From Pelagibacteraceae bacterium AG-426-P20 (GTDB taxonomy: Bacteria > Pseudomonadota > Alphaproteobacteria > Pelagibacterales > Pelagibacteraceae), in the NCBI GenBank assembly GCA_003210015.1, contig QCNX01000002.1:1-60997 (forward strand): a stretch of DNA of 60,997 nucleotides, written 5' to 3'. Shown piece by piece: positions 1 through 38,299 of this stretch (its first letter is position 1; each line of letters opens with the position of its first letter). The notes below the pieces were generated by a model that worked only from the letters and a program-made list of their open reading frames with translations, did no database searches and had not been told where the DNA came from. A program made the translations under genes and the position numbers.

Positions 1-671
1 TATTTACTCTTTATCCGGAAGTTTTTCCTGGACCTTTATCTAAAGGTCTTTATGGAAAAGCTTTGTCTAATAAATTGTGGAATTTAAGTGTAATAAATAT
101 TAGAGATGCAGCCACCGATAAACATAAAACAGTTGATGATACTCCTTATGGGGGAGGAACAGGAATGTTGTTAAAAGCTAATGTTTTAGCAAATGCGCTT
201 GATCAAAAAGTTAAAGAGGGAGAGAGGGTTTTTTATCTTTCACCCAAAGGTAAAAAATTTGATCAAAAACTTGCTCAAGATCTGTCAAAAGAAAAATCTA
301 TATCTTTAATATGTGGTCATTTCGAAGGCGTGGATGAAAGAGTTTTATCCACAAGAAATATTGAAGAAATAAGTATAGGAGATTATGTTTTGTCTGGTGG
401 AGAAACTGCTGCATTAGTAGTGCTTGATAGCATTTTAAGACTTTTGCCTGGAGTTTTAGGAAATGATAAATCCTCACTCGATGAAACCTTTGAAAATGGT
501 CTTTTAGAATATCCTCAATATACAAAACCTCAAATATGGGAGAAAAAATCAGTACCAGAGGTATTATTATCTGGAGATCATAGTAAAATTAAAGACTGGC
601 GTTTATCTCAATCTGAGGCTATAACACGCGTCCGAAGACCAGATTTATGGCAAAAATATAAGAAGAATTAA
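1..671 (+). CDS. trmD: tRNA (guanine-N1)-methyltransferase TrmD, 5' end truncated by window
   Basis: Frame open from base 3 ([21 protein letters not shown]...) into ORF 63..671; motifs [35 protein letters not shown]. Confidence 0.95.
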
Positions 672-672
672 T

Positions 673-1239
673 TTGTTAAATATTGAAATGAAAAATATAG
701 AAGAAATAAACCAACATAACGTCAAAAAAATCCTATCAGAAAAGAAAATTCCGGATTTTTTTCCTGGTGATGTAGTAAAAGTTGGCGTCAGAATTACAGA
801 AGGAAAAAAAGAGAGAATTCAATATTTTGAAGGTGTTTGTATAGCTAAGAAAAATAGGGACTTAAATTCATCTTTTACTGTTAGAAAGATATCTTTTGGA
901 GAAGGTGTTGAAAGAACTTTTCCATTATATGGAACAGTAATTGATACGATCAAAGTAATTCGATCAGGGAAAGTTAAGAGAGCAAAACTTTATTATTTAA
1001 GAGATAGAACTGGTAAATCAGCAAGAATTGCAGAAAAAATAAGAAAAAAAATTGGAATTGATATCGATGTTAAACCTGAAACTGTGACTGAAGAAAATCT
1101 AGCACCAGTAACAGAAGCTAAAAAGGAAGAAGCTCCTAAAGTAGATGCGGCACCAGCAGTAGAGGCCAAAAAGGAAGAAGCTCCTAAAGAAGAAGCTAAA
1201 ACAGAAAAAAAACTTGAAAACACACCAGAAAAAAAATAA
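673..1239 (+). CDS. rplS: 50S ribosomal protein L19 with Lys/Glu/Ala/Pro-rich C-terminal extension (start may be ATG 688)
   Basis: [75 protein letters not shown]; follows trmD; about 60-aa low-complexity tail. Confidence 0.93.
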
Positions 1240-1250
1240 TTTTTTTTTCA

Positions 1251-1865
1251 ATGCCCAATACTCTTTACGATAAAATTTGGATCGATCACTTAGTAGATCA
1301 ACAAGAAGATGGAACCGCTTTACTATTTGTTGATAGACATTTAGTTCATGAAGTTACTAGTCCACAGGCTTTTGAGGGATTAAGAAATTCTAAACGTAAA
1401 GTTAGACATCCAAACTTAACTCTTGCAGTTGCAGATCACAATGTTCCTACAACAGATAGGTCCCAGGGTATTTCTGACCAAGAGTCAAAGATACAAGTTG
1501 AAACTTTAGAGGCCAATTGTAAAGAATTTGGAGTTCAACTTTTTGGAATGGATGATAAGAGACAAGGCATAGTTCATGTTACTGGTCCTGAACAGGGTTT
1601 TACTCAACCGGGTACGGTTATAGTTTGTGGCGATAGTCATACTGCTACTCATGGTGCATTCGGTGCTTTGGCATTTGGAATTGGAACTTCAGAGGTAGAA
1701 CATGTTTTGGCAACACAAACATTAGTTCAGAAAAAAGCAAAAAATTTTAGAATAAACGTTAATGGTAAACTTCCAATTATCGCATTAGGTTTGGGTGAAA
1801 AAGAAGATGACTTGCAAATATTTGAGGCTGAAAAATTTGCTGAGGCTTTTACTCAGACTAATTAA
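1251..1865 (+). pseudogene. Chimeric ORF: N-terminal part of LeuC (isopropylmalate dehydratase large subunit) joined in frame to an FtsY-like C-terminal tail
   Basis: Residues ~1-174 match LeuC ([44 protein letters not shown]); the last ~30 aa ([27 protein letters not shown]) resemble the FtsY GTPase C-terminus, not LeuC. Confidence 0.8.
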
Positions 1866-2421
1866 TCAAATTACTTGATATAAGTGGTTTGTAATAACTA
1901 CACTTATAATTATCTTTAAATTTAAAATGACCACAATTTTTTGCAAATGAAGATATAATAAAATCAAATTTACCAGTAGTTGGATATAATTCTAATTTTT
2001 TTTCAATAATATCAAATTTGAAGTTAGCATTTAAACTTTTTACTGCACTAATCATTACTAAAGTTTTATTATCTTTTAAAAGATAATAGGCAAAATCATC
2101 TGGAAATACTGGGAAATCATATTCTTCTAAATAGAATTTTGCGTGAGATGGAAACCACTCATAGGAAATTAATGGGGATGAAGTTTTAGTTTTATAATCA
2201 TAAATATAAAGATCTTTTGGATAATCACTAATATAATTACTAGTTTCACCTCTAGCTAAAATAGAATTTTCTCGACCTTTAAAATACAAAGCAAAATTTT
2301 CATTATGTGAATTCATTTGATCTATATGAAATAAATCATCAAGTAAAAATTCATTATCTTTTGCAATAGCAATTTTATTCAAAAAAAAAGTAAAAATTAT
2401 TAAAAATATTATTCTACTCAC
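1858..2421 (-). CDS. Hypothetical secreted protein (N-terminal signal peptide)
   Basis: ORF with hydrophobic N-terminus [22 protein letters not shown]; family not recognised. Confidence 0.6.
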
Positions 2422-2470
2422 AATAATAATCTAAAAATTAATATTGAATTATATTTGTTTAGAATGTGGC

Positions 2471-3289
2471 TTAATTTAAACTTTTGAAAAATGATTTAAG
2501 GGCGAAAATTAACTTTTCATCATATTCCATCATATGATTGTCATATTTTGTAAAGTAAGAATATTTGGGTTCATTTGCTATTTCATAAATTTTTTTACCC
2601 ATTGAAAATGGAACTATTTGATCCACTTCACCGTGCATAACTAAAATAGGTGAATTTATATTTTTAACTTTTTTATAATTTTCAAATTTATCTTTAAGCA
2701 ACAAATTAACTGGTATGTAAGGATAGAATTTTTTTGCAGCATCTATCATTGATGTAAATGGTGTTTCTAAAATTATACCTGCATAACTTTTGTTTTGAGC
2801 TAGATGCGTAGCTACACCTGTTCCTAAAGACTCTCCATATAAAATAAGATTTTTTTCATTTACTCCTTTTTGAGCTAACCAATTAATTGCACTTTTTCCA
2901 TCTTCATAAAGACCTTTTTCAGTGGGTTTACCATTGTTACCACTAAAACCTCGCCAAGCTATAATTAAAAAATTAATATTCATATCTTGAAAGTGATTAA
3001 GTTTATGAATTCTATTTTCTAAAGATCCAGCATTACCATGAAAATAAACAAGGGTTTTATAATTTTTGAGATTTTTTTCATGATACCATCCCACTAACTC
3101 AATATTGTCCGAGGTTAATATCTTTACTTTTTTTATATCTACCGAAATTTTATCCTCTGAATAATTATTCTCATTTGGATGGTAAAGTAAATTACGCTGA
3201 TAAAAGTATAAAAATACTAAAACAAAAAAATACAAAAAAAATATGATTAAAACTAATTGCAATAAATTTTTCCTAAGTTTTTTTAACAT
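2471..3289 (-). CDS. Membrane-anchored alpha/beta hydrolase
   Basis: N-terminal TM; YFHGNAGSLENRI, LYGESLGTGVATHLA nucleophile elbow, MHGEVDQIVPF, catalytic-type His near the C-terminus. Confidence 0.85.
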   Translation of the reverse strand: MLKKLRKNLLQLVLIIFFLYFFVLVFLYFYQRNLLYHPNENNYSEDKISVDIKKVKILTSDNIELVGWYHEKNLKNYKTLVYFHGNAGSLENRIHKLNHFQDMNINFLIIAWRGFSGNNGKPTEKGLYEDGKSAINWLAQKGVNEKNLILYGESLGTGVATHLAQNKSYAGIILETPFTSMIDAAKKFYPYIPVNLLLKDKFENYKKVKNINSPILVMHGEVDQIVPFSMGKKIYEIANEPKYSYFTKYDNHMMEYDEKLIFALKSFFKSLN

Positions 3290-4178
3290 TTTTTTTTTTT
3301 GCTAAGTATACGCCAATAAATACCAAAACTGTGCCTATCAAATGATAATTTTCTAATTTTTCTCCAAATAAAAAATAACCATAAATTGCACCGTAAATTG
3401 TAAAAATGTATAATGTAAATCCAGTCAAAGATGCACCAAGTTTTTTTTGGGTTATTGTATAAAGAGTAAATGCAATTATACCTGGAGAAATTGCTGCAAA
3501 GATTACCCACATAAAAAATTCCCTACTAATAATAGTTTTTTCAAAAAAAAATTCCTCACCAATATAAAAAGGCAATAAACTAACAGCACCAAAGAAAGCT
3601 ATTAAAGTAAATCTTTGAAAAATCTCAAGTTTAGTTTTCCAGTAAAAAAGATAAATTGAGTATAATGCCCAACCTATAGCGGCAGCTAACATCCAAAGAT
3701 CACCAATTGTGAAATTAAGATTTATTAATAAATAAAGATCACCCTTAATAATAATTGCAAAAACTCCAATTAAACAAGATATGAGCCCAATAATTTTTGT
3801 AAGATTAATTTTTTCACCAAAAAAAATACCTGAAATCAAGATTATAAATATTGGTGATGACGTATAAATAATTCCCATATTAGTAACCGTAGTAGTTTGA
3901 CCTGCTAAAAAAGGGAAAGCTCCACAAACACCACAGCCAGTTGCGCCTAAAAATAAAAGTTTTTTATACTCTTTTTTTATAATCTTATAATTTTTTTGTA
4001 GTGATACATAAGTAAATGGTAAGAGAATTAAAAAAACTAATGTCCATCTCCAAAAAGCTAAGGAAATTGGTGGAACAAATTCAACACCTCCTCGAGCTAC
4101 AACTAAATTTGATGCCATAAAAATAGGTTGAATAAATAAAAGTGAAAGTGCAAAAAGATTGTTAGTTTTAGTGCTCAA
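3273..4178 (-). CDS. EamA/DMT-family transporter
   Basis: ~10 hydrophobic segments; FWRWTLVFLILLPFTY, TVTNMGIIYTSSPIFIILISGIFFGEKI. Confidence 0.85.
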   Translation of the reverse strand: MSTKTNNLFALSLLFIQPIFMASNLVVARGGVEFVPPISLAFWRWTLVFLILLPFTYVSLQKNYKIIKKEYKKLLFLGATGCGVCGAFPFLAGQTTTVTNMGIIYTSSPIFIILISGIFFGEKINLTKIIGLISCLIGVFAIIIKGDLYLLINLNFTIGDLWMLAAAIGWALYSIYLFYWKTKLEIFQRFTLIAFFGAVSLLPFYIGEEFFFEKTIISREFFMWVIFAAISPGIIAFTLYTITQKKLGASLTGFTLYIFTIYGAIYGYFLFGEKLENYHLIGTVLVFIGVYLAKKKNVKKT

Positions 4179-4197
4179 TGATTTGTTTTTAAATTAT

Positions 4198-4374
4198 TTA
4201 TTTTTTATCAAAGAAGGCTTCATAAACCATCATGAAAATTGCAATGCCCATCAAAATATAAACGGGTAACACATCAAAAAAACCTATCATTGATGACCTA
4301 GTCAATGTAGTAGCAAGACCAACTAAAAAAGCAATGGCGAGTAAAGAACCTAAAAGTGTTGTAAACTTTTGCAT
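4198..4374 (-). CDS. Small two-TM membrane protein, 58 aa, not in ORF track
   Basis: Translated by hand: MQKFTTLLGSLLAIAFLVGLATTLTRSSMIGFFDVLPVYILMGIAIFMMVYEAFFDKK*; ATG lies 1 nt after the amidase stop, same strand. Confidence 0.65.
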   Translation of the reverse strand: MQKFTTLLGSLLAIAFLVGLATTLTRSSMIGFFDVLPVYILMGIAIFMMVYEAFFDKK

Positions 4375-5700
4375 TTAATTATTACATTCCTTTTCTAACC
4401 AATTAGCAACCCCTAAAAATCTATGATCATCATAACGATCTCCTATAAGCTGAACTCCTAATGGTAAATTTTTCTCTCCTTCAAGCAAAGGAAGAGAAAT
4501 ACAAGGGGTTCCCAAATAAGACCAGACTTTATTAAATTCTGCTGTCCCTGTACTCTTTAAGCCTTTTAAAGCAACACCTGGACTAGAAGGAGATAACACG
4601 CCGTGATAATCTTCAAAGACTTCTTGGTAAGACTCATAACTTCTTTTTTTAAAATCAATTGCTTCAGCATATTCTTTTGCTGAATGCTTATTGCCTTTAG
4701 CTATAGCTGCTTGCATATATTTTGAAAGTTTAGTTTTATATTTTTTGTAATACATGCCAAAATTATTTGCCAAATCTGTTTCGTGAATAATTTGATGATA
4801 TTTATGAATATCTTTAAAATATGATGGGGTATCAAAAACCTCTATATTTTTAAATGACTTAATAAAATATTCAAATGACTCTCTTGATTTTTTATCAATT
4901 ATTTTCCAATAATCTGTCTTATAGAAAATAAACTTAGGTTCGTATGCGGGCCCCTTTTTTACTTCTTCTAAAATATTTTCAGCTGAATAATAAATGGTTG
5001 CGGTGTCATGATGGTCTTTTTTAATTAAAACTTTTGCTAATAATGCAACATCTTGAACTGTTCTTCCAAATATGCCGATATGATCTAATGAGTAAGATGT
5101 TCTTAAAACACCATTTCTTGAAATCAAACCATAACTAGGCTTATAACCAACAACTCCACAGTATGAGGCTGGTCTAATGACTGATCCTCCTGTTTGAGAT
5201 CCAATCGAAAGTGGTGTCATTAGAGATGCAACAGATGCTGCCGATCCACTTGAAGAACCTCCTGGTGTACGTGAATAATCGTGAGGATTTGTTGTTTTTG
5301 GTGGGCCAAGATATGCTAACTCTGAAGTGGTTGTTTTACCCATTACAATTGCTCCAGCAGCATGTAGAAGTTCAACTATCTCGGCATTCTGGGAGTAAGA
5401 TTTACCTTTTCTTATTACTGTTCCACATTCAGTCGGCATATCCACAGTCCCGATAATATCTTTTAAAGCTACAGGAACACCATGTAATGTGCCTACTGGT
5501 TTTCCAGATCTTCTATGCTCATCTGCATCTGCAGCTTTTTCTAATAAAAGTTTTTTATCAAAATGAACCCATGCTTTGACCTCTTTTTCAAATTTATTTA
5601 TTCTTTCTATATATTTTTCACAAACTTCAACAGATGTTAATTGGCCCTCTTTAATTTTTAAAGCCATCTCCTCAACACTTAATGAAAATATATCAATCAT
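4375..5700 (-). CDS. Amidase (amidase-signature family)
   Basis: Amidase signature GTLHGVPVALKDI, KTTTSELAY, TPGGSSSGSAASVAS, SIGSQTGGSVIRPASYCGVVGYKPS. Confidence 0.92.
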   Translation of the reverse strand: MIDIFSLSVEEMALKIKEGQLTSVEVCEKYIERINKFEKEVKAWVHFDKKLLLEKAADADEHRRSGKPVGTLHGVPVALKDIIGTVDMPTECGTVIRKGKSYSQNAEIVELLHAAGAIVMGKTTTSELAYLGPPKTTNPHDYSRTPGGSSSGSAASVASLMTPLSIGSQTGGSVIRPASYCGVVGYKPSYGLISRNGVLRTSYSLDHIGIFGRTVQDVALLAKVLIKKDHHDTATIYYSAENILEEVKKGPAYEPKFIFYKTDYWKIIDKKSRESFEYFIKSFKNIEVFDTPSYFKDIHKYHQIIHETDLANNFGMYYKKYKTKLSKYMQAAIAKGNKHSAKEYAEAIDFKKRSYESYQEVFEDYHGVLSPSSPGVALKGLKSTGTAEFNKVWSYLGTPCISLPLLEGEKNLPLGVQLIGDRYDDHRFLGVANWLEKECNN

Positions 5701-5705
5701 TTTTT

Positions 5706-7067
5706 TTAGTCAGCAAACAACACATCTGGCAGCCACAATGCTATTCCAGGGAACATATACATTAAAAACATTCCAAAAATAACTATACCCAAGAATGGCA
5801 TAATTCCTTTAAATATTTCCAATAATTCAACATTAGCTTTTTGAACTCCTTTTAAATAATAGGCCGACATTGCCATCGGTGGCGTTAAAAAAGATGTTTG
5901 TAAATTTAAAGCTATTAACATTGCAAAAAAATATGGATTAACATCAAAAACTTCTAAAAGAGGCAAAAATATTGGTACAAATATAATTAAGATTTCAGTC
6001 CATTCTAAAGGCCATCCTAAAAGAAAAATTATTATTTGAGTAATCACTAAAAATTGCCATGTAGTAATGTTTATTGAAGTAAAGAAATGTTCAAATACTT
6101 CGTGTCCTCCCAAATAAGAAAAGACAGAAGAAAAAGTCCAAGAACCAATAAACAACCACATAATCATAGCCGTAGTTTTTGCTGTTAGAAAAACTGACTC
6201 TTTAAAATTTTGCCATTTAAGAGTTTTATAGAACCACGATAAAAGTATTGCACCAAACGCTCCCGCAGCAGCAGCTTCTGCTGGAGTAGCTATGCCTGCT
6301 AAAATTGTTCCTAAAACTAACATTATTAAACCAAATAAAGGCACGAAAGAAACAAGTACCTCTTTTAAAATTTGAGCTCTAGGTGGAATATCCTCAGCAG
6401 GTGGTCTAGGTGCTATTGATGGATTTAACCAAGCTCTTGTAACTGCATAAGCAATATATAAGCCTGCCAACATTAACCCAGGAAAAATCGCAGCAGCAAA
6501 TAATCTTAATGGAGATAATTGTGCAATCACAGAATAAACAATTAACATAATACTTGGTGGAATTAAAATTCCTAAACAGCCACCAGCACAAATTATTCCT
6601 GAAGCAAATTTTTTATCATATCCCGCTTTAACCATTGCTGGCCAAGCTAGTAAACCCATCAAAGTTACAACAGCTCCTATAATCCCTGTTGCTGTGGAAA
6701 ATAAAGTACAAGTTATTAATGCAGCTACAGCCATGGATGCAGGCAACCTGTGAGCTGCTAATCTAATAGCAAAAAATAATTTAGCTACTATTCCAGCTCT
6801 CTCAACTAAATATCCCATGAATAAAAAAAGTGGAACCGCAGTCAGCACGTTATTATCCATAACCGTGTAAGTATTTTTAACGAACAAAGAAAATATCCTG
6901 TTATCAAATAAATGATCCATCAAAACAGGATCATAATAAGCATAGTAACCAAAGCCTATTCCCATTGCCATTAAAGTGAACGCTATTGGAAAGCCCAATA
7001 AAACTGCAAACAAAAATACGCCCATCATTAAAATTGCAACTTCAGGATTGGTAAGACTAAACAACAT
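5706..7067 (-). CDS. TRAP transporter large permease subunit DctM
   Basis: Long polytopic protein with DctM motifs (VPLFLFMGYLVERAGI, GCLGILIPPSIMLIVYSVIAQ, ATPAEAAAAGAFGA). Confidence 0.95.
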   Translation of the reverse strand: MLFSLTNPEVAILMMGVFLFAVLLGFPIAFTLMAMGIGFGYYAYYDPVLMDHLFDNRIFSLFVKNTYTVMDNNVLTAVPLFLFMGYLVERAGIVAKLFFAIRLAAHRLPASMAVAALITCTLFSTATGIIGAVVTLMGLLAWPAMVKAGYDKKFASGIICAGGCLGILIPPSIMLIVYSVIAQLSPLRLFAAAIFPGLMLAGLYIAYAVTRAWLNPSIAPRPPAEDIPPRAQILKEVLVSFVPLFGLIMLVLGTILAGIATPAEAAAAGAFGAILLSWFYKTLKWQNFKESVFLTAKTTAMIMWLFIGSWTFSSVFSYLGGHEVFEHFFTSINITTWQFLVITQIIIFLLGWPLEWTEILIIFVPIFLPLLEVFDVNPYFFAMLIALNLQTSFLTPPMAMSAYYLKGVQKANVELLEIFKGIMPFLGIVIFGMFLMYMFPGIALWLPDVLFAD

Positions 7068-7644
7068 TTTGATTATCTTCCTCTTGGGATGTTCTCATTA
7101 AAATTTTTTCAGTTTCCTCAGCTACAACCATTCTTGCAGGCCATTGACCAGATTGAATACATAGTATTGATCTAAACACTTCACTGATACCTTGGATTAT
7201 TAATAAAACACCTGCAGCAGGTATCATAGATTTTACCATGTAGATTTGAATTTGAGCAGGACTGCTCCAGCTAGTTTCTTTTATTTTCCAAGCTTGCGCA
7301 GCATATTCATAACCATAAAAAGCTAAAGCAATAACCCCTGGGAAAAAAAAGATAAAATATAAAACTAAATCTATCCATGCTTGAGTTTTTTGGTTAAATA
7401 ATCTGTAGATAACATCACCTCTTACATGTGCTTCTGTAGCTAGACAATATGCTCCTGACATCATTAATATCGCTCCATACATCTGCATACTAAAATCAAA
7501 ATTCCATAACGTTGGTGCATTAAATGCATACGCCATAATAACTTCATAAACTGTACCTCCCATTAAAATAACTATGCACCATGAAAAAGCTTTTCCCATT
7601 GAGGTACTTAAAGTATCAGCAAATCTTATAAAAGATTTCATCAT
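7057..7644 (-). CDS. TRAP transporter small permease subunit DctQ
   Basis: 4-TM protein overlapping dctM, with an EAHVRGDVIYRL DctQ motif. Confidence 0.93.
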   Translation of the reverse strand: MMKSFIRFADTLSTSMGKAFSWCIVILMGGTVYEVIMAYAFNAPTLWNFDFSMQMYGAILMMSGAYCLATEAHVRGDVIYRLFNQKTQAWIDLVLYFIFFFPGVIALAFYGYEYAAQAWKIKETSWSSPAQIQIYMVKSMIPAAGVLLIIQGISEVFRSILCIQSGQWPARMVVAEETEKILMRTSQEEDNQNVV

Positions 7645-7672
7645 ATTTTTGAGGGTATATTATAAATGATTA

Positions 7673-7698
7673 AAAAAAAAGGGGGTTTTTAAACCCCC
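7673..7698 (-). terminator. Intercistronic hairpin + U-tract between dctP and dctQ (probable partial terminator)
   Basis: Minus strand GGGGGTTTAAAAACCCCC followed by TTTTTTTT. Confidence 0.75.
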
Positions 7699-7723
7699 TC
7701 TTTTTAAAATTTTTAAAAGTTAA

Positions 7724-8878
7724 TTAAATTTTAACTTTTGCAATTGGACCAAACTCATTTTCATAAGCTAATTTGTAGTTCGGTTGATTCATCAACAGAT
7801 ACTTCATTGTTCTCTTAGCGTATGCTTTTTGAGAGTCGATAATTTTCTTAAAGAAAGGATCTTTTCCAGAAAATTCAGCGACTATTTTATCCCAACCTTT
7901 TAATTGTTCAGATAAAATTGCATCAGATGTTTGGTAAACATTAACCTTATGTTCATTCATCAATTTACCTAAGTCAGTTGAATATCTAACTAAAGCTTTG
8001 AAGTAGTTATCTGAGTTTGCAGCATAAGCAGCATTTTTCAAGATAGCTTGATGAGCAGGTGAAAGGCTGTTGTATCTTTTCTTGTTCACCGGTATCTCAA
8101 ACATTTCTTGAGACTGGTGGAAACTACCTAAGTGATAGTGTTTAGATACATCTTGCATTCCAAACTGTGAGTCTGATGTTGGGTTGTTAAACTCTGCAGC
8201 ATCAATCAAACCAGTTTTCATAGCTGGTTGGATTTCACCACCTGGTAACTGTCTTACGACCATTCCCATAGCAGTTAAAACGTTAGTCGCTAAACCAACT
8301 GTTCTATACTTCATACCTTTAACATCAGATACTTTTGTTACGTTCTTTTTGAACCAACCAAAAGGTTGTGCTGGCATAGGCATATGAAAGAATCCAATAT
8401 AATCGAATCCAACTGAAGCAACTGCTTCTTCATATAATTTTCTTCCTCCACCATACTCCATCCATCCCATAACTTCTTGAGATGACATTCCGTATGAAGG
8501 ACCAGTTCCAAAAAGTGAAGCTGCAGCATTTTTACCATACCAATATGCTGTCACCCAGTGACCCATATCAAGGTTTCCATCACTTACCGCTGCTCCTATT
8601 TCTGAAGTCTTTACAACTGAACCAACTGGCTGAAGATCTATTTTTAAAGAACCTCCAGACATGTCGCTTACCATTTTGCAATAGTCTCCTGCCATTTCAA
8701 AAAAGATGTTTGCGCCTGAAGGCCAAGCAGCTTGCATCTTAAGAGTTACTGGAGCTGCGTGTGCAATGTTTGGCATTGCCACTGTTGCAGCTGCAACAGC
8801 TCCTGCTTTAGCAGCAGTTTTAAAGAACTTACGTCTTGAAGATTTTGTAGTCTTCAATGATTTATTTTCTTTTGTCAT
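7724..8878 (-). CDS. TRAP transporter substrate-binding protein (DctP/TakP-like) with Tat-type signal
   Basis: SSRRKFFKTAAKAGAVAAATVAMPNIAHA signal; AAWPSGANIFFEMAGDY, GEIQPAMKTGLIDAAEF. Confidence 0.94.
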   Translation of the reverse strand: MTKENKSLKTTKSSRRKFFKTAAKAGAVAAATVAMPNIAHAAPVTLKMQAAWPSGANIFFEMAGDYCKMVSDMSGGSLKIDLQPVGSVVKTSEIGAAVSDGNLDMGHWVTAYWYGKNAAASLFGTGPSYGMSSQEVMGWMEYGGGRKLYEEAVASVGFDYIGFFHMPMPAQPFGWFKKNVTKVSDVKGMKYRTVGLATNVLTAMGMVVRQLPGGEIQPAMKTGLIDAAEFNNPTSDSQFGMQDVSKHYHLGSFHQSQEMFEIPVNKKRYNSLSPAHQAILKNAAYAANSDNYFKALVRYSTDLGKLMNEHKVNVYQTSDAILSEQLKGWDKIVAEFSGKDPFFKKIIDSQKAYAKRTMKYLLMNQPNYKLAYENEFGPIAKVKI

Positions 8879-8943
8879 TGTTACTCCTATTAAAGTTAAT
8901 TAACTTCAATAATTAAACACAGTTTGAGATTAGAGTCTTTCTA

Positions 8944-8963
8944 AAAAAAAGCGACGATGTCGC
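8944..8963 (-). terminator. Rho-independent terminator downstream of the hydroxyacid dehydrogenase gene
   Basis: Minus strand GCGACATCGTCGC followed by an 8-9 T run. Confidence 0.75.
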
Positions 8964-8995
8964 ATAATTTAAATTAAATACAATTGTAAGTAGAA

Positions 8996-11377: not shown

Positions 11378-12544
11378 CTATTTAGACAACATTTTTTTCA
11401 GATTTTCCAGGGCATCAGAAATATTTTGCTGTGAACACGCAAAGCTAAATCTCACGTAATCATTACAAGTTTTACCGAATGCTGTACCAGGAACAATTGC
11501 AACTCCTGCATTATGCATTGCTTTTTTACAAAATTCAGCTCCATTCATTCCTGTTCCAATAACCTTTGGAAATGCATAAAAGGCTCCACCTGGTAAACTA
11601 CATTCAACACCTGGCAAACTATTAAGTCCCTCATGGATTAACTTTCTTCTCTCTGTGAACTTTTTCATCATTTCATGTATCGAGTCATCAGGACCGTCTA
11701 ATGCTGCTATTCCAGCAAACTGAGCAGCTGCATTTACACATGATACACTATTAATTAGAAGTTTATTAACATGTTGAACTAAATCTTTTGGCCAAAAACT
11801 CCAACCTAATCTCCATCCTGTCATAGAGTAAGCTTTACTCCAACCTTCTAATACAATTAATCTCTCTCTTAGTTCTGGATAATTAAAAAATGTTGGCATT
11901 TCTTTGTCATCAAAAATTTGTCTACTATATATTTCATCACTCAAGATTGTAACATGAGGATGTTTTTTTAAACCTTCAGCTAATTTATCTACCTCTGGTT
12001 TTTCAACAAAACTTCCTGTTGGATTATTTGGATTTATTAATATTAATAATCTTGTCTTATCTGTTATTAAAGAAAGAATTTTATCTGCTTTAAATTTTAA
12101 ATCTTTATCCTCAGTTAAATCATATGGAACAGAAGTCGAGCCTGTATAATTAATCATAGACTCATAAATAGGGAAAGCTGGTGTTGGATGAATGATTTCT
12201 GCTCCTGGTTCACCAAAACATTGAATTGCATAACTCATAGTTGGTTTTCCACCAGGCATTATTAAAATTCTCTCAAAATCTACTTCAACATCGTATCGTT
12301 TTTTAATCCATCTTGTAACTGCTTGTCTGCACTCAGGGATACCATTAGACATTACATATCCATGGTGTCCATCATCCAAAGCTTTTTTTGCAGCCTCTAC
12401 AACGTGTTTAGGTGTTTTAAAATCAGGCTGTCCTAATCCCATGTGTATCATTGGGTTACCTTGAGCTTCTAACTTTTTTGCTTCTGCTAGAACTGAAAAA
12501 GCCGATTCAGTTCCGAGATTTTCTAAATTTTTTGCTAATTTCAT
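11378..12544 (-). CDS. PLP-dependent aminotransferase, class I/II
   Basis: MGLGQPDFKTPKHV, NPNNPTGSF, SDEIYSRQIFD, GWSKAYSMTGWRLGW, VRFSFA. Confidence 0.93.
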   Translation of the reverse strand: MKLAKNLENLGTESAFSVLAEAKKLEAQGNPMIHMGLGQPDFKTPKHVVEAAKKALDDGHHGYVMSNGIPECRQAVTRWIKKRYDVEVDFERILIMPGGKPTMSYAIQCFGEPGAEIIHPTPAFPIYESMINYTGSTSVPYDLTEDKDLKFKADKILSLITDKTRLLILINPNNPTGSFVEKPEVDKLAEGLKKHPHVTILSDEIYSRQIFDDKEMPTFFNYPELRERLIVLEGWSKAYSMTGWRLGWSFWPKDLVQHVNKLLINSVSCVNAAAQFAGIAALDGPDDSIHEMMKKFTERRKLIHEGLNSLPGVECSLPGGAFYAFPKVIGTGMNGAEFCKKAMHNAGVAIVPGTAFGKTCNDYVRFSFACSQQNISDALENLKKMLSK

Positions 12545-24577: not shown

Positions 24578-25720
24578 ATGAATTTTGTTCCGTCGAGAGC
24601 TTTTGCTATTGATAAACTTAACAAATTTGTTGATCAAAATTTATTTGAATATTCAAGGTTAAGAAATTTTGATTATGGTCCAAAAAATAGATCAAATATT
24701 TCATGCATTTCCCCTTATATTACTCATGGTGTAATTTCTGAGTTAGAGTTAATTAAAAAATCTTTAAATAAATTCTCATTTTCCAAAAACGAAAAATTTA
24801 TTCAAGAAGTTTTATGGAGAACATACTGGAAAGGTTGGTTGGAATTAAGACCTACTGTTTGGACAGATTATTTAAACGAATTAAAAAAAATTCGTGAAGA
24901 ATTTAAAGATAACGCTGATTATAAAAAGGCTATTGAGGGAAATACAAATATAGAGTGTTTTAATGAATGGGTAAATGAATTAAAAGAAAACAATTACTTA
25001 CACAATCATGCAAGGATGTGGTTTGCAAGTATTTGGGTTTTTACTTTAGAGCTGCCGTGGCAATTAGGGGCTGAATTTTTTATGAAGCATTTGTATGATG
25101 GAGATACTGCAGCCAATACATTAGGATGGAGATGGGTTACTGGAATTCAAACACAAGGAAAAAATTATTTAGCTAGTGAATGGAACATTAAAAAATTTAC
25201 CAATAACAGGTTTAACAATATCAAACTTAATGAAAATGCTCCTCCGAAAACAAGCGATAAAACTTATGCTGCATCAAAATTGGAGTTTAAGAATCCACAA
25301 AATCTTGAAGAAAAAAATCTTCTTATTTTTGAGAATAATTTGTCTTTTGAAATAAGTGATTTTAAAGATCAAAAATTTAAAAAGGTTTTTTTAATTTCTA
25401 ACAAAAATGAAAACCGAACCATAAAGCTCAGTGAAAAATTAGTAAAATTCAAGTCTCAATTAATTGAAGATCAAAAAAAGAGATTAGAAGAAAAATCAAT
25501 TGATACTGAAATTATAGATTTGAGTGAGATACAGAATATTAATGAAACTTCTTATGGTTTATATCCGACAGTTGGTGAAAACCTAGATTTTATAAATACG
25601 AATAATTTAAAAATAGAATTTCTGTATAGAAAATTAGATCAATTTTCTTGGCAATATTGTAATAAAGGTTTTTTTAATTTTAAGAATTATATTCCAAAAA
25701 TTATTACAAATTTCAATTAA
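24578..25720 (+). CDS. Cryptochrome/photolyase-family FAD-binding protein lacking the usual N-terminal alpha/beta domain
   Basis: FAD-domain motifs RSNISCISPYITHG, LWRTYWKGWLELRP, HNHARMWFASIWVF, LYDGDTAANTLGWRWVTGIQTQGKNYLAS. Confidence 0.88.
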   Translation: MNFVPSRAFAIDKLNKFVDQNLFEYSRLRNFDYGPKNRSNISCISPYITHGVISELELIKKSLNKFSFSKNEKFIQEVLWRTYWKGWLELRPTVWTDYLNELKKIREEFKDNADYKKAIEGNTNIECFNEWVNELKENNYLHNHARMWFASIWVFTLELPWQLGAEFFMKHLYDGDTAANTLGWRWVTGIQTQGKNYLASEWNIKKFTNNRFNNIKLNENAPPKTSDKTYAASKLEFKNPQNLEEKNLLIFENNLSFEISDFKDQKFKKVFLISNKNENRTIKLSEKLVKFKSQLIEDQKKRLEEKSIDTEIIDLSEIQNINETSYGLYPTVGENLDFINTNNLKIEFLYRKLDQFSWQYCNKGFFNFKNYIPKIITNFN

Positions 25721-26493
25721 AATTCATATTTCTTGAAATAGATCTGATCTAGCCAAGTCAATCTACCTATCAACTTGTAACTGTTTTTAGCTAAAAGGTT
25801 TCGAATTTTTTTTGATTTCATAGATGATGGTTCCTCGTCTTCATAGATAATGTAATCAATTTTTTCTTTGAATGACAATGACTCTAAAACTTCTAATTCA
25901 AATCCCTGAACATCAATCACTAAAAGGTTTGAAGTATTAACTGGAAAATTTATATTTTTTAATTGAAAAGATTTTACGTATTCATGGATTATATTTTCTT
26001 TAAATCTTTTGATGTTATTTATATAATTTTTTCCTCTAAACGAATTGTCATCAATAGCTTTTAGGATAGAATTTTTATCAAAAGAACCTTGCCCATGTGC
26101 CCAATTATCAAAAAACCCTTCCCCATTCAATTCATTACAAATTTTTGGGTTTATATAAAAAATTTTTTTGTTTAAATTTTCATTTGAAACATAAAAATTT
26201 TCTAATTTTATATCTTCACGATTTTTGTACAGATCACATAGCTGATCATAATAATACTTGATGGGTTCAAATATTATTGTTGAATAATTACCTTTGTTCA
26301 CCAAGAATTGTCTTAATGGATCATTTTGTATCCCATCATTCCCACCAACTTGTACAATAAATTTTTTCTTTTCTTGTGAGAAGTAATATTTAAAAAAATC
26401 AGGAGTTTTAAAATTATTTTTATAAATAGTTTTTGATAAAATTTTACGTTTTAATTTAAAAAAGAGATTATTTAATAAATTCATTAAAACCAT
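25717..26493 (-). CDS. FkbM-family methyltransferase-like protein
   Basis: FIVQVGGNDGIQNDPLRQFL, IIFEP, LLVIDVQGFELEVLESL. Confidence 0.82.
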   Translation of the reverse strand: MVLMNLLNNLFFKLKRKILSKTIYKNNFKTPDFFKYYFSQEKKKFIVQVGGNDGIQNDPLRQFLVNKGNYSTIIFEPIKYYYDQLCDLYKNREDIKLENFYVSNENLNKKIFYINPKICNELNGEGFFDNWAHGQGSFDKNSILKAIDDNSFRGKNYINNIKRFKENIIHEYVKSFQLKNINFPVNTSNLLVIDVQGFELEVLESLSFKEKIDYIIYEDEEPSSMKSKKIRNLLAKNSYKLIGRLTWLDQIYFKKYEF

Positions 26494-35257: not shown

Positions 35258-36331
35258 ATGAGTAAAAAACCCTTAATTCTTGGAATAGAAACCAGTTGTG
35301 ACGAAACCGCAGCATCAATTGTTACTGAAAATGAACATGGAATACCAATAGTTTTATCTAATGTGATCTCAAGTCAAGTAGATGTTCATAAAGAATTTGG
35401 AGGCGTAGTCCCTGAATTAGCAGCTAGATCACATATAGAGAAAATTGATTGGATTGTTCAAAAAGCAATTAGAGAAAGTGGGAAAAAAATTGAAGAAATT
35501 AATGCAATCGCTTCAACTGCAGGTCCAGGACTAATAGTGTGTTTATCGGTAGGTTTAAGTTTTGGGAAGAGTCTTGCTTCAATATTAAACAAACCTTTTA
35601 TTGCCATAAATCACTTGGAAGGTCATGCCTTAAGTCCAAAACTTAATTCAAAATTAAACTATCCATATTTACTTTTGTTAATATCTGGAGGTCATTCTCA
35701 ATATTTGCACGTACAGAATATTGGTACATATAAAAGATTAGGAACTACAATTGATGATGCACTTGGAGAAGCGTTTGATAAAACTGCAAAATTACTTGGA
35801 ATAAAATTTCCTGGTGGTCCTCAAATTGAGATATTAGCCAAAAAAGGAAATCCAAAAAGATTTGATCTTCCTAAACCAATTTTAAATAAAGGAGGATGTA
35901 ACTTATCTTTTGCTGGACTTAAAACAGCAGTGCTTAAAATAAGTAAAAATATTAAAAACGATCAAGACAAATTTGATTTGGCTGCTTCTTTTCAAAAAAC
36001 AATTTTAGATATTCTTTTAAAAAAAACAACTATCGCCTTTAAAGAGTATGAAAAAACCAATTCAAAAAAAAATAAAATATTTGTTGTGGCCGGAGGAGTG
36101 GCAGCTAATGAACAAATTAGACTAATGTTAATAAAGCTATGTGATGAAAATGGTTATAAACCTGTGTTTCCACCAATAAATTTATGTGGAGATAATGCGG
36201 CAATGATTGCTTTGGTGGGATTAGAAAAATTTAAAACTAACAAATTTTCTTCTTTAGACAGCCCTGCTAAACCAAGATGGCCTTTAGACGAAAAAGCTGA
36301 ATTCTTAAAGGGAGCTGGAGTTAAATTATAA
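35258..36331 (+). CDS. tsaD: tRNA threonylcarbamoyladenosine biosynthesis protein TsaD
   Basis: LGIETSCDETAAS, GPGLIVCLSVG, NHLEGHALSP, ISGGHSQYL, GDNAAMIALVG. Confidence 0.97.
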   Translation: MSKKPLILGIETSCDETAASIVTENEHGIPIVLSNVISSQVDVHKEFGGVVPELAARSHIEKIDWIVQKAIRESGKKIEEINAIASTAGPGLIVCLSVGLSFGKSLASILNKPFIAINHLEGHALSPKLNSKLNYPYLLLLISGGHSQYLHVQNIGTYKRLGTTIDDALGEAFDKTAKLLGIKFPGGPQIEILAKKGNPKRFDLPKPILNKGGCNLSFAGLKTAVLKISKNIKNDQDKFDLAASFQKTILDILLKKTTIAFKEYEKTNSKKNKIFVVAGGVAANEQIRLMLIKLCDENGYKPVFPPINLCGDNAAMIALVGLEKFKTNKFSSLDSPAKPRWPLDEKAEFLKGAGVKL

Positions 36332-38299
36332 TTCAATATTTATTTTTGGTTCTTCACTGAAATATTTATTATAAATAATTTTATAAGCTTCTTCAATATT
36401 TTTTGTATAGACCGAAGTATTAAACAAATTAGAACTTTTTTTATTAACTTTAATTTTATCTTTGATTTCTGCAAAATAGTTTTTATCATTTGAAATTTTT
36501 AGGGCTAACTTTTCATACTCATCAAAACTGTTTGTGATTAATTCACCCACACTAATTGTATTTATCAAGCTTGCAGCAACTCTACTTGCAAAGGATTTAC
36601 CTTTTAAAGTAACAACTGGAAGATCCATTCTTAAAGCATCACTACATGATGTGTGGGCATTATATGGATAAGTATCAAGCAACAAATCTGCTAATTTTAA
36701 TCTGGCTAAATGTTGATCTAAAGGTACATGATCAGCAAAAATTAATCTTTTAGGATCTAATCCCTGTTCAGATAAAGCATTTTTTAAATTTTTTTCTGAA
36801 AATTTATTATCCTTAAGCAGCCATAAAACACTATCTTTTTTTTGTTTTAGAATTTTTATCCAAGCCAAAAATATTTTAGGATTAATTTTTTGATGACTAT
36901 TAAAGCAACAAAAAATAAATTGATTTTCAGGTAAACCATTTTTTTCTCTGGTTAAATTACTATCTAAGATCGCCTTATTTTCTTCGTTTGGTTGATATGT
37001 GTCAGGTAAATAAATAATTTTTTCTGAATAATATTTTTCTTCATCAGCAGATATCAAAGTTTTATCAGCAACAATATAATCCATACATTTTGATCCAGAC
37101 GTTCCTGGGTAACCAAGGAAATTCACTTGTATGGGTGCTGCCTTATGCAAAAAAACGCCAAACCTATTATTATTACCAGTGTAGCCCATACAATCGATTG
37201 CTATATCTATTCCTTTATCTCTAGATAAATTAACAGCCTCATTGTTGTCTAGAAGGCTTATATCATTAAAACTATCAAAACATTTTAATATTCTATTTTG
37301 TACTAAGTCATTTTTATTTAACTTTGGACCAAAATAAAATCCATGTAATTCAAATTTTTTTTTATTATGGAGTTCAAACATTCTCACCATTAAATGCCCC
37401 ATGGGGTGAGTTCTAAAATCTGCCGAGAAAAAACCCAACTTAATTTTATCATTTTTTTTATTATTAAATTTTAGATTCATCTCATGTTTGAGTCTATATT
37501 CTTGTTGCCATATTTCAGAGCATCTAAGTTGCAACTCCGGTGAGTCAAAAAGTGTAGTTATTGGATATGGCGGAGAAGACTTAATACTTTTTTGAATCTG
37601 TGTCTCTAATTCTAACATATCATTTTGAAAGTTATCCCATTCACACATTCTTGTTTTAGTATGAATAAAATTTCCTAATACAAAAGATGGTTCTGATTTA
37701 ATCTCTAAAGCTCTTTTATAATTATCTAAAGCTTCATCTAATTTATTTAAATCAAAATAAATGTCTGCTTTATCTATAAAAGCTTTTAAATTATTAGGTT
37801 CGTATATCAATATCTTGTCTATTTCAGATAGAACTTGTGTAAAATTTTTTTGTTTTTTAAATATTTCTTTTCTGCTTTTAATTGAAGGAAGATAATCATA
37901 TTTGATTGCTAGCGCTGAATTATAATTCTCTAAAGCTTTTTGTATATTATTTAATTTTGAATATGCATTACCTCTATTATGATAAGCCTCAAAATAATCA
38001 GATTTAATATTAATTGCTTTATCATAATTTATTATAGCATTGTCTATTTCATTTATTTTTAAATAAACATTTCCAAGATTATTATATCCAAAAAAATAAT
38101 CTTTATTCAATTCTATTGTTTTTTTCCAATTAATTATTGCCTCATCAAACTTTTTAAGTTCATATAATATAACAGCATAAATGTTATATATTTCAAAATT
38201 TGAATCAATTTTACTTAAAATTTCTTCACACTGTTTTTTTGCATTCAAAAAATCTTTTTTTTTATATAAATCAAATAATTTTTTTAGATTTTTGTCCAT
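36326..38299 (-). CDS. TPR-repeat protein with O-GlcNAc transferase (OGT/SPINDLY)-like C-terminal domain
   Basis: TPR units (YNNLGNVYLKINEIDNAIINYDKAINI...); FFSADFRTHPMGHLM, QVNFLGYPGTSGS, YLPDTYQPN, FCCFNSHQKINP, LLDTYPYNAHTSCSDALRMDLPVVTLKGKSFASRVA. Confidence 0.92.
   Translation of the reverse strand: MDKNLKKLFDLYKKKDFLNAKKQCEEILSKIDSNFEIYNIYAVILYELKKFDEAIINWKKTIELNKDYFFGYNNLGNVYLKINEIDNAIINYDKAINIKSDYFEAYHNRGNAYSKLNNIQKALENYNSALAIKYDYLPSIKSRKEIFKKQKNFTQVLSEIDKILIYEPNNLKAFIDKADIYFDLNKLDEALDNYKRALEIKSEPSFVLGNFIHTKTRMCEWDNFQNDMLELETQIQKSIKSSPPYPITTLFDSPELQLRCSEIWQQEYRLKHEMNLKFNNKKNDKIKLGFFSADFRTHPMGHLMVRMFELHNKKKFELHGFYFGPKLNKNDLVQNRILKCFDSFNDISLLDNNEAVNLSRDKGIDIAIDCMGYTGNNNRFGVFLHKAAPIQVNFLGYPGTSGSKCMDYIVADKTLISADEEKYYSEKIIYLPDTYQPNEENKAILDSNLTREKNGLPENQFIFCCFNSHQKINPKIFLAWIKILKQKKDSVLWLLKDNKFSEKNLKNALSEQGLDPKRLIFADHVPLDQHLARLKLADLLLDTYPYNAHTSCSDALRMDLPVVTLKGKSFASRVAASLINTISVGELITNSFDEYEKLALKISNDKNYFAEIKDKIKVNKKSSNLFNTSVYTKNIEEAYKIIYNKYFSEEPKINIEL

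Follow-up and report, generated by a model that had tools for sequence, protein, structure and literature searches.

An in-frame LeuC–FtsY fusion at a SAR11 contig end is very probably an inverted laboratory chimera

We found that an open reading frame at 1251–1865 (+) of the window, which is the whole of contig C2 (60,997 nt), consists of codons 1–172 of leuC followed, in the same reading frame, by the final 32 codons of ftsY. This LeuC–FtsY fusion is very probably a laboratory artefact and no real feature of the organism. We hold with high confidence that the join at 1766–1775 is an inverted chimera that was formed in vitro, most likely during phi29 multiple displacement amplification (MDA) of a single SAR11 cell, and was kept by the assembler.

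Composition of the fusion frame

The frame lies downstream of rplS and encodes 204 amino acids. Residues 1 to about 174 matched LeuC (TIGR00170, 283.7 bits), and the match covered profile positions 1–174 of 466 and stopped there; the Pfam Aconitase family was also matched, over positions 1–176 of 463. The LeuC part was about 90% identical to that of relatives at the protein level. The tail matched FtsY, and residues 172–203 were 97% identical to the FtsY end of the relative G019. LeuC is the 3-isopropylmalate dehydratase large subunit and FtsY the SRP receptor. Chance is no reasonable explanation for this double match. Compared with ordinary Pelagibacteraceae LeuC and FtsY, both halves are plain orthologues, but each is incomplete and the fusion protein has no counterpart among the relatives searched.

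The earlier note had described the frame as starting as LeuC after rplS and switching to the FtsY end at this site. The profile match to positions 1–174 bears out the first part and the tail, which matches FtsY and not LeuC, confirms the second. That note had set relatives carrying the short frame as a conserved gene as a finding that would speak against it, and none were found; a conserved short LeuC-like gene was thereby ruled out, since no relative searched has one. The features at this end of the window are collected in Table 1.

Table 1. Features of the window around the LeuC–FtsY join
Feature	Position	Strand	Basis or remark
trmD	2..671	+	truncated by the contig start, with codon 1 expected at about −21
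rplS	673..1239	+	long Ala/Lys/Glu/Pro-rich tail; orthologue in G019
leuC 5′ part, codons 1 to ~175 of 467	1251..1775	+	TIGR00170, Pfam Aconitase, G019 DNA identity
breakpoint, 10-nt microhomology TAAACTTCCA common to leuC and ftsY	1766..1775		BLAST alignment overlap and base-by-base alignment
ftsY 3′ end, last 32 codons and stop	1766..1865	+	match to relatives' FtsY
187-aa protein, no known family	1858..2421	−	next after ftsY in relatives, in convergent orientation
alpha/beta hydrolase, EamA-type transporter, amidase and TRAP transporter genes	2471..8878	−	normal order downstream of relatives' ftsY

Breakpoint and gene order

At the DNA level the window was 90.0% identical to G019 on the leuC side (1–1775) and 88.1% identical on the ftsY side (1766–8917). 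The two alignments share exactly 10 nt, TAAACTTCCA, and at the corresponding position G019 leuC reads CAAACTTCCA. The reading frames of leuC and ftsY both divide the shared stretch as AAA-CTT-CCA. It is therefore the position of the shared sequence in the two genes that puts the join in frame, and selection is not needed to explain it. The earlier proposal that amplification or assembly produced a chimera where the two genes share a short sequence (aaacttcc) is therefore supported, at the very site named. Beyond the tail, the 187-aa protein gave no Pfam match and is kept downstream of ftsY in most relatives; its presence here, as in relatives, indicates that the real downstream context of ftsY continues in the window.

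We examined this neighbourhood in roughly 80 relatives' loci (SAR11, Pelagibacteraceae). The gene order is the 187-aa protein gene (+), ftsY and dapF (−), then ffh, rpsP, trmD, rplS, leuC, leuD and leuB (+), and both order and orientation were constant in nearly all loci long enough to show them. In G019 the TRAP genes, amidase, EamA and hydrolase genes precede the 187-aa protein gene on the plus strand, ftsY and dapF are on the minus strand, and ffh to leuB are again on the plus strand. The relatives thus carry leuC and the ftsY tail on opposite strands, about 5.4 kb apart in G019. When the window was aligned with C1 of G019, positions 1–1775 corresponded to 72479–74253 forward and positions 1766–8917 to 68832–61675 reversed, with one orientation change. 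The LeuC–FtsY join was absent from every relative searched.

Judged from gene orientation, then, the join is an inverted one and not a collapsed deletion, because leuC and ftsY sit on opposite strands in relatives. The earlier suggestion that a segment had collapsed between two same-strand genes fails on this point, and a deletion between direct repeats is ruled out in the same way. A genuine leuC–ftsY fusion gene was also rejected: it is not conserved in relatives, where leuC is full-length (467–494 codons in the 29 same-genus matches that became loci) and gene order is constant. Contamination, or a join between two species, was unsupported, the two arms and contig C44 of the same assembly being similarly identical to G019 (90.0, 88.1 and 89.6%).

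The remainder of ftsY and leuC

Most of the remaining ftsY lies on C44. This contig (3,405 nt) carries part of rpsP, ffh, dapF and ftsY codons 1–257, and maps to 72279–68878 of G019 with 89.6% identity. The assembly as a whole has 909,565 bases in 59 contigs, of which the smallest checked was C59 (2,009 nt), and is estimated to be 76% complete. Family searches of its contigs did not find the leuC 3′ part, leuD or leuB anywhere in this 76% complete assembly. On C1, the matches to the leuC and leuD families fall within a single 890-aa open frame, which is probably an aconitase, and the leuB family match on C10 was weak. No intact copy of leuC, leuD or leuB was found elsewhere in the assembly.

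These absences are what one would expect if a deletion in the genome had fused leuC with ftsY and left the cell auxotrophic for leucine, but a simple deletion is unable to join genes on opposite strands, and the intervening ffh, dapF and rpsP are present on C44 together with most of ftsY. Furthermore, little weight can be put on one adjacent cluster being absent from an assembly that is 76% complete. We consider this deletion, which the earlier note had put forward, to be barely credible. The best view is that the leuC 3′ part, leuD and leuB went unrecovered, rather than that their absence reflects auxotrophy. A genuine deletion scar was rejected likewise: in relatives the flanking genes lie in opposite orientations, and the intervening genes were found on C44.

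The right end of C44 falls 45 nt short of the breakpoint. FtsY was gap-free among 69 matches in relatives, so this distance is robust and not blurred by length variation. If 100 nt of trimming is assumed, the raw end of C44 runs 55 nt past the first shared base. C44 therefore ends exactly where an assembly-graph branch between the true ftsY path and the chimeric leuC path at k=55, the largest SPAdes default in such a pipeline, followed by 100-base end trimming, predicts, a correspondence that rests on this one case. Trimming of 100 bp, a 2,000-bp minimum and SPAdes --sc are what one single-cell genomics group has published as its pipeline (PMC5519541).

The left ends can be treated in the same manner. 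Those of C44 and C2 are about 200 nt apart in G019, and with 100 nt of trimming per contig the two raw ends meet in the rpsP tail. The meeting point is a tandem repeat, whose G019 copy has a 48-nt period and repeated 55-mers. Several other relatives' loci also begin near trmD. As separate observations, trmD is the contig start in many relatives, as in the window, and in SAR11 relatives both rpsP and rplS have long C-terminal tails that are rich in Ala, Lys, Glu and Pro and contain similar KKEEAPK units (12324–12435 of locus L040 for rpsP; 1100–1239 of the window for rplS).

Origin of the join

Next to a chimera formed in vitro, we considered that the assembler alone had erred at a short repeat, with no chimeric molecule involved. 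Misjoins do occur in short-read assemblers, and there is a repeat, 1.8 kb from the join, at which the contig breaks. The 10 nt shared here are far shorter than a 55-base k-mer, however, and without real chimeric reads a de Bruijn assembler would have no path across such a join, which makes this explanation very improbable.

The join was then compared with chimeras described for MDA. Among single-cell MDA chimeras, inversions made up 85%; of 406 such inversions, 337 linked sites less than 10 kb apart, and junction overlaps were 2–21 nt (Lasken and Stockwell 2007, PMC1855051). Inverted joins over less than 10 kb with a short overlap are thus the main class of MDA chimera. In another study overlap length peaked at 6 nt (PMC4595205). 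The join in the window resembles the inverted phi29 chimeras (PMC1855051) in that its second segment is inverted, its two sites are less than 10 kb apart (about 5.4 kb) and its overlap is 10 nt; in keeping with such an origin, the join was absent from the relatives searched, and joins of the same geometry occur at other sites in other single-cell-type assemblies of the family. Unlike the chimeras of that study, which were seen in reads, the join here is known from an assembled contig, of a genome that was probably amplified by MDA. Among the close kin that carry names, single-cell-type assemblies are in the majority, and the close kin, the contig statistics and the contig-end arithmetic together point to a single-cell origin of this genome.

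Three single-cell-type assemblies of the family contained different inverted joins in the same neighbourhood. They were located at about 3847–3854 in L059 (AG-908-O13; 8 nt overlap, 4.0 kb), at about 9675–9679 in L077 (AG-912-C16; 5 nt, 3.7 kb) and at about 404–413 in L083 (AG-414-L03; about 8–10 nt, 5.1 kb). With that of the window there are four such joins, and none is more than about 4 kb from the end of its contig. Gene calls at the three additional join points are probably artefacts; the true partner contigs in those assemblies were not found with the queries tried.

On the amplification model, a displaced 3′ end would have copied trmD–rplS–leuC as far as TAAACTTCCA. This end may then have paired with the same 10 nt where they occur in ftsY, about 5.4 kb off, on displaced single-stranded DNA copied from the opposite strand, and extension would have run through the end of ftsY into its downstream genes. 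The true ftsY junction would also be present in the reads, as the end position of C44 suggests indirectly.

A real chromosomal inversion was also considered. It would have turned round the segment of about 5.4 kb that is flanked by the 10 nt occurring as inverted repeats in leuC and in ftsY, with a LeuC′–FtsY tail fusion at one end and a FtsY′–LeuC″ fusion at the other. A clean inversion predicts a left-hand junction identical to that seen, and C44 stops 45 nt before the spot where the reciprocal junction would show. It would truncate FtsY and LeuC together, however, and FtsY, the SRP receptor, is normally essential. Moreover, such an inversion was seen in no relative searched, the reciprocal leuC 3′ part is not in the assembly, and joins of the same class occur at other sites in other single-cell-type assemblies. 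An inversion also leaves the exact end of C44 unexplained, whereas a branch between true and chimeric paths predicts it. We therefore regard a chromosomal inversion as very unlikely. Were it true, one SAR11 cell lineage would have a shortened SRP receptor and would need leucine, an outcome we think just as hard to credit.

Significance and additional observations

Being very probably an in vitro chimera, the fusion is uninformative as to this marine bacterium's biology and matters as a warning and for annotation hygiene. In single-cell assemblies, terminal arms that are short and inverted can mimic fusion genes, losses of essential genes and auxotrophies. Since three further joins were found in one neighbourhood among roughly 80 loci, claims of fusion or gene loss from such assemblies should be checked against gene orientation in relatives.

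Other differences between the window and G019 were noted. At 8917–8982 of the window, G019 has about 9.6 kb (52051–61675) that aligns nowhere in the window, which would reflect either differing content among relatives or a further effect of assembly. A 657-aa protein at 36326–38299, by eye of TPR/O-GlcNAc-transferase type, lies within a stretch of about 2 kb that is absent from the compared G019 region. A 258-aa protein at 25717–26493, which by eye resembles FkbM-type methyltransferases, likewise lies in a stretch absent from the compared G019 region.
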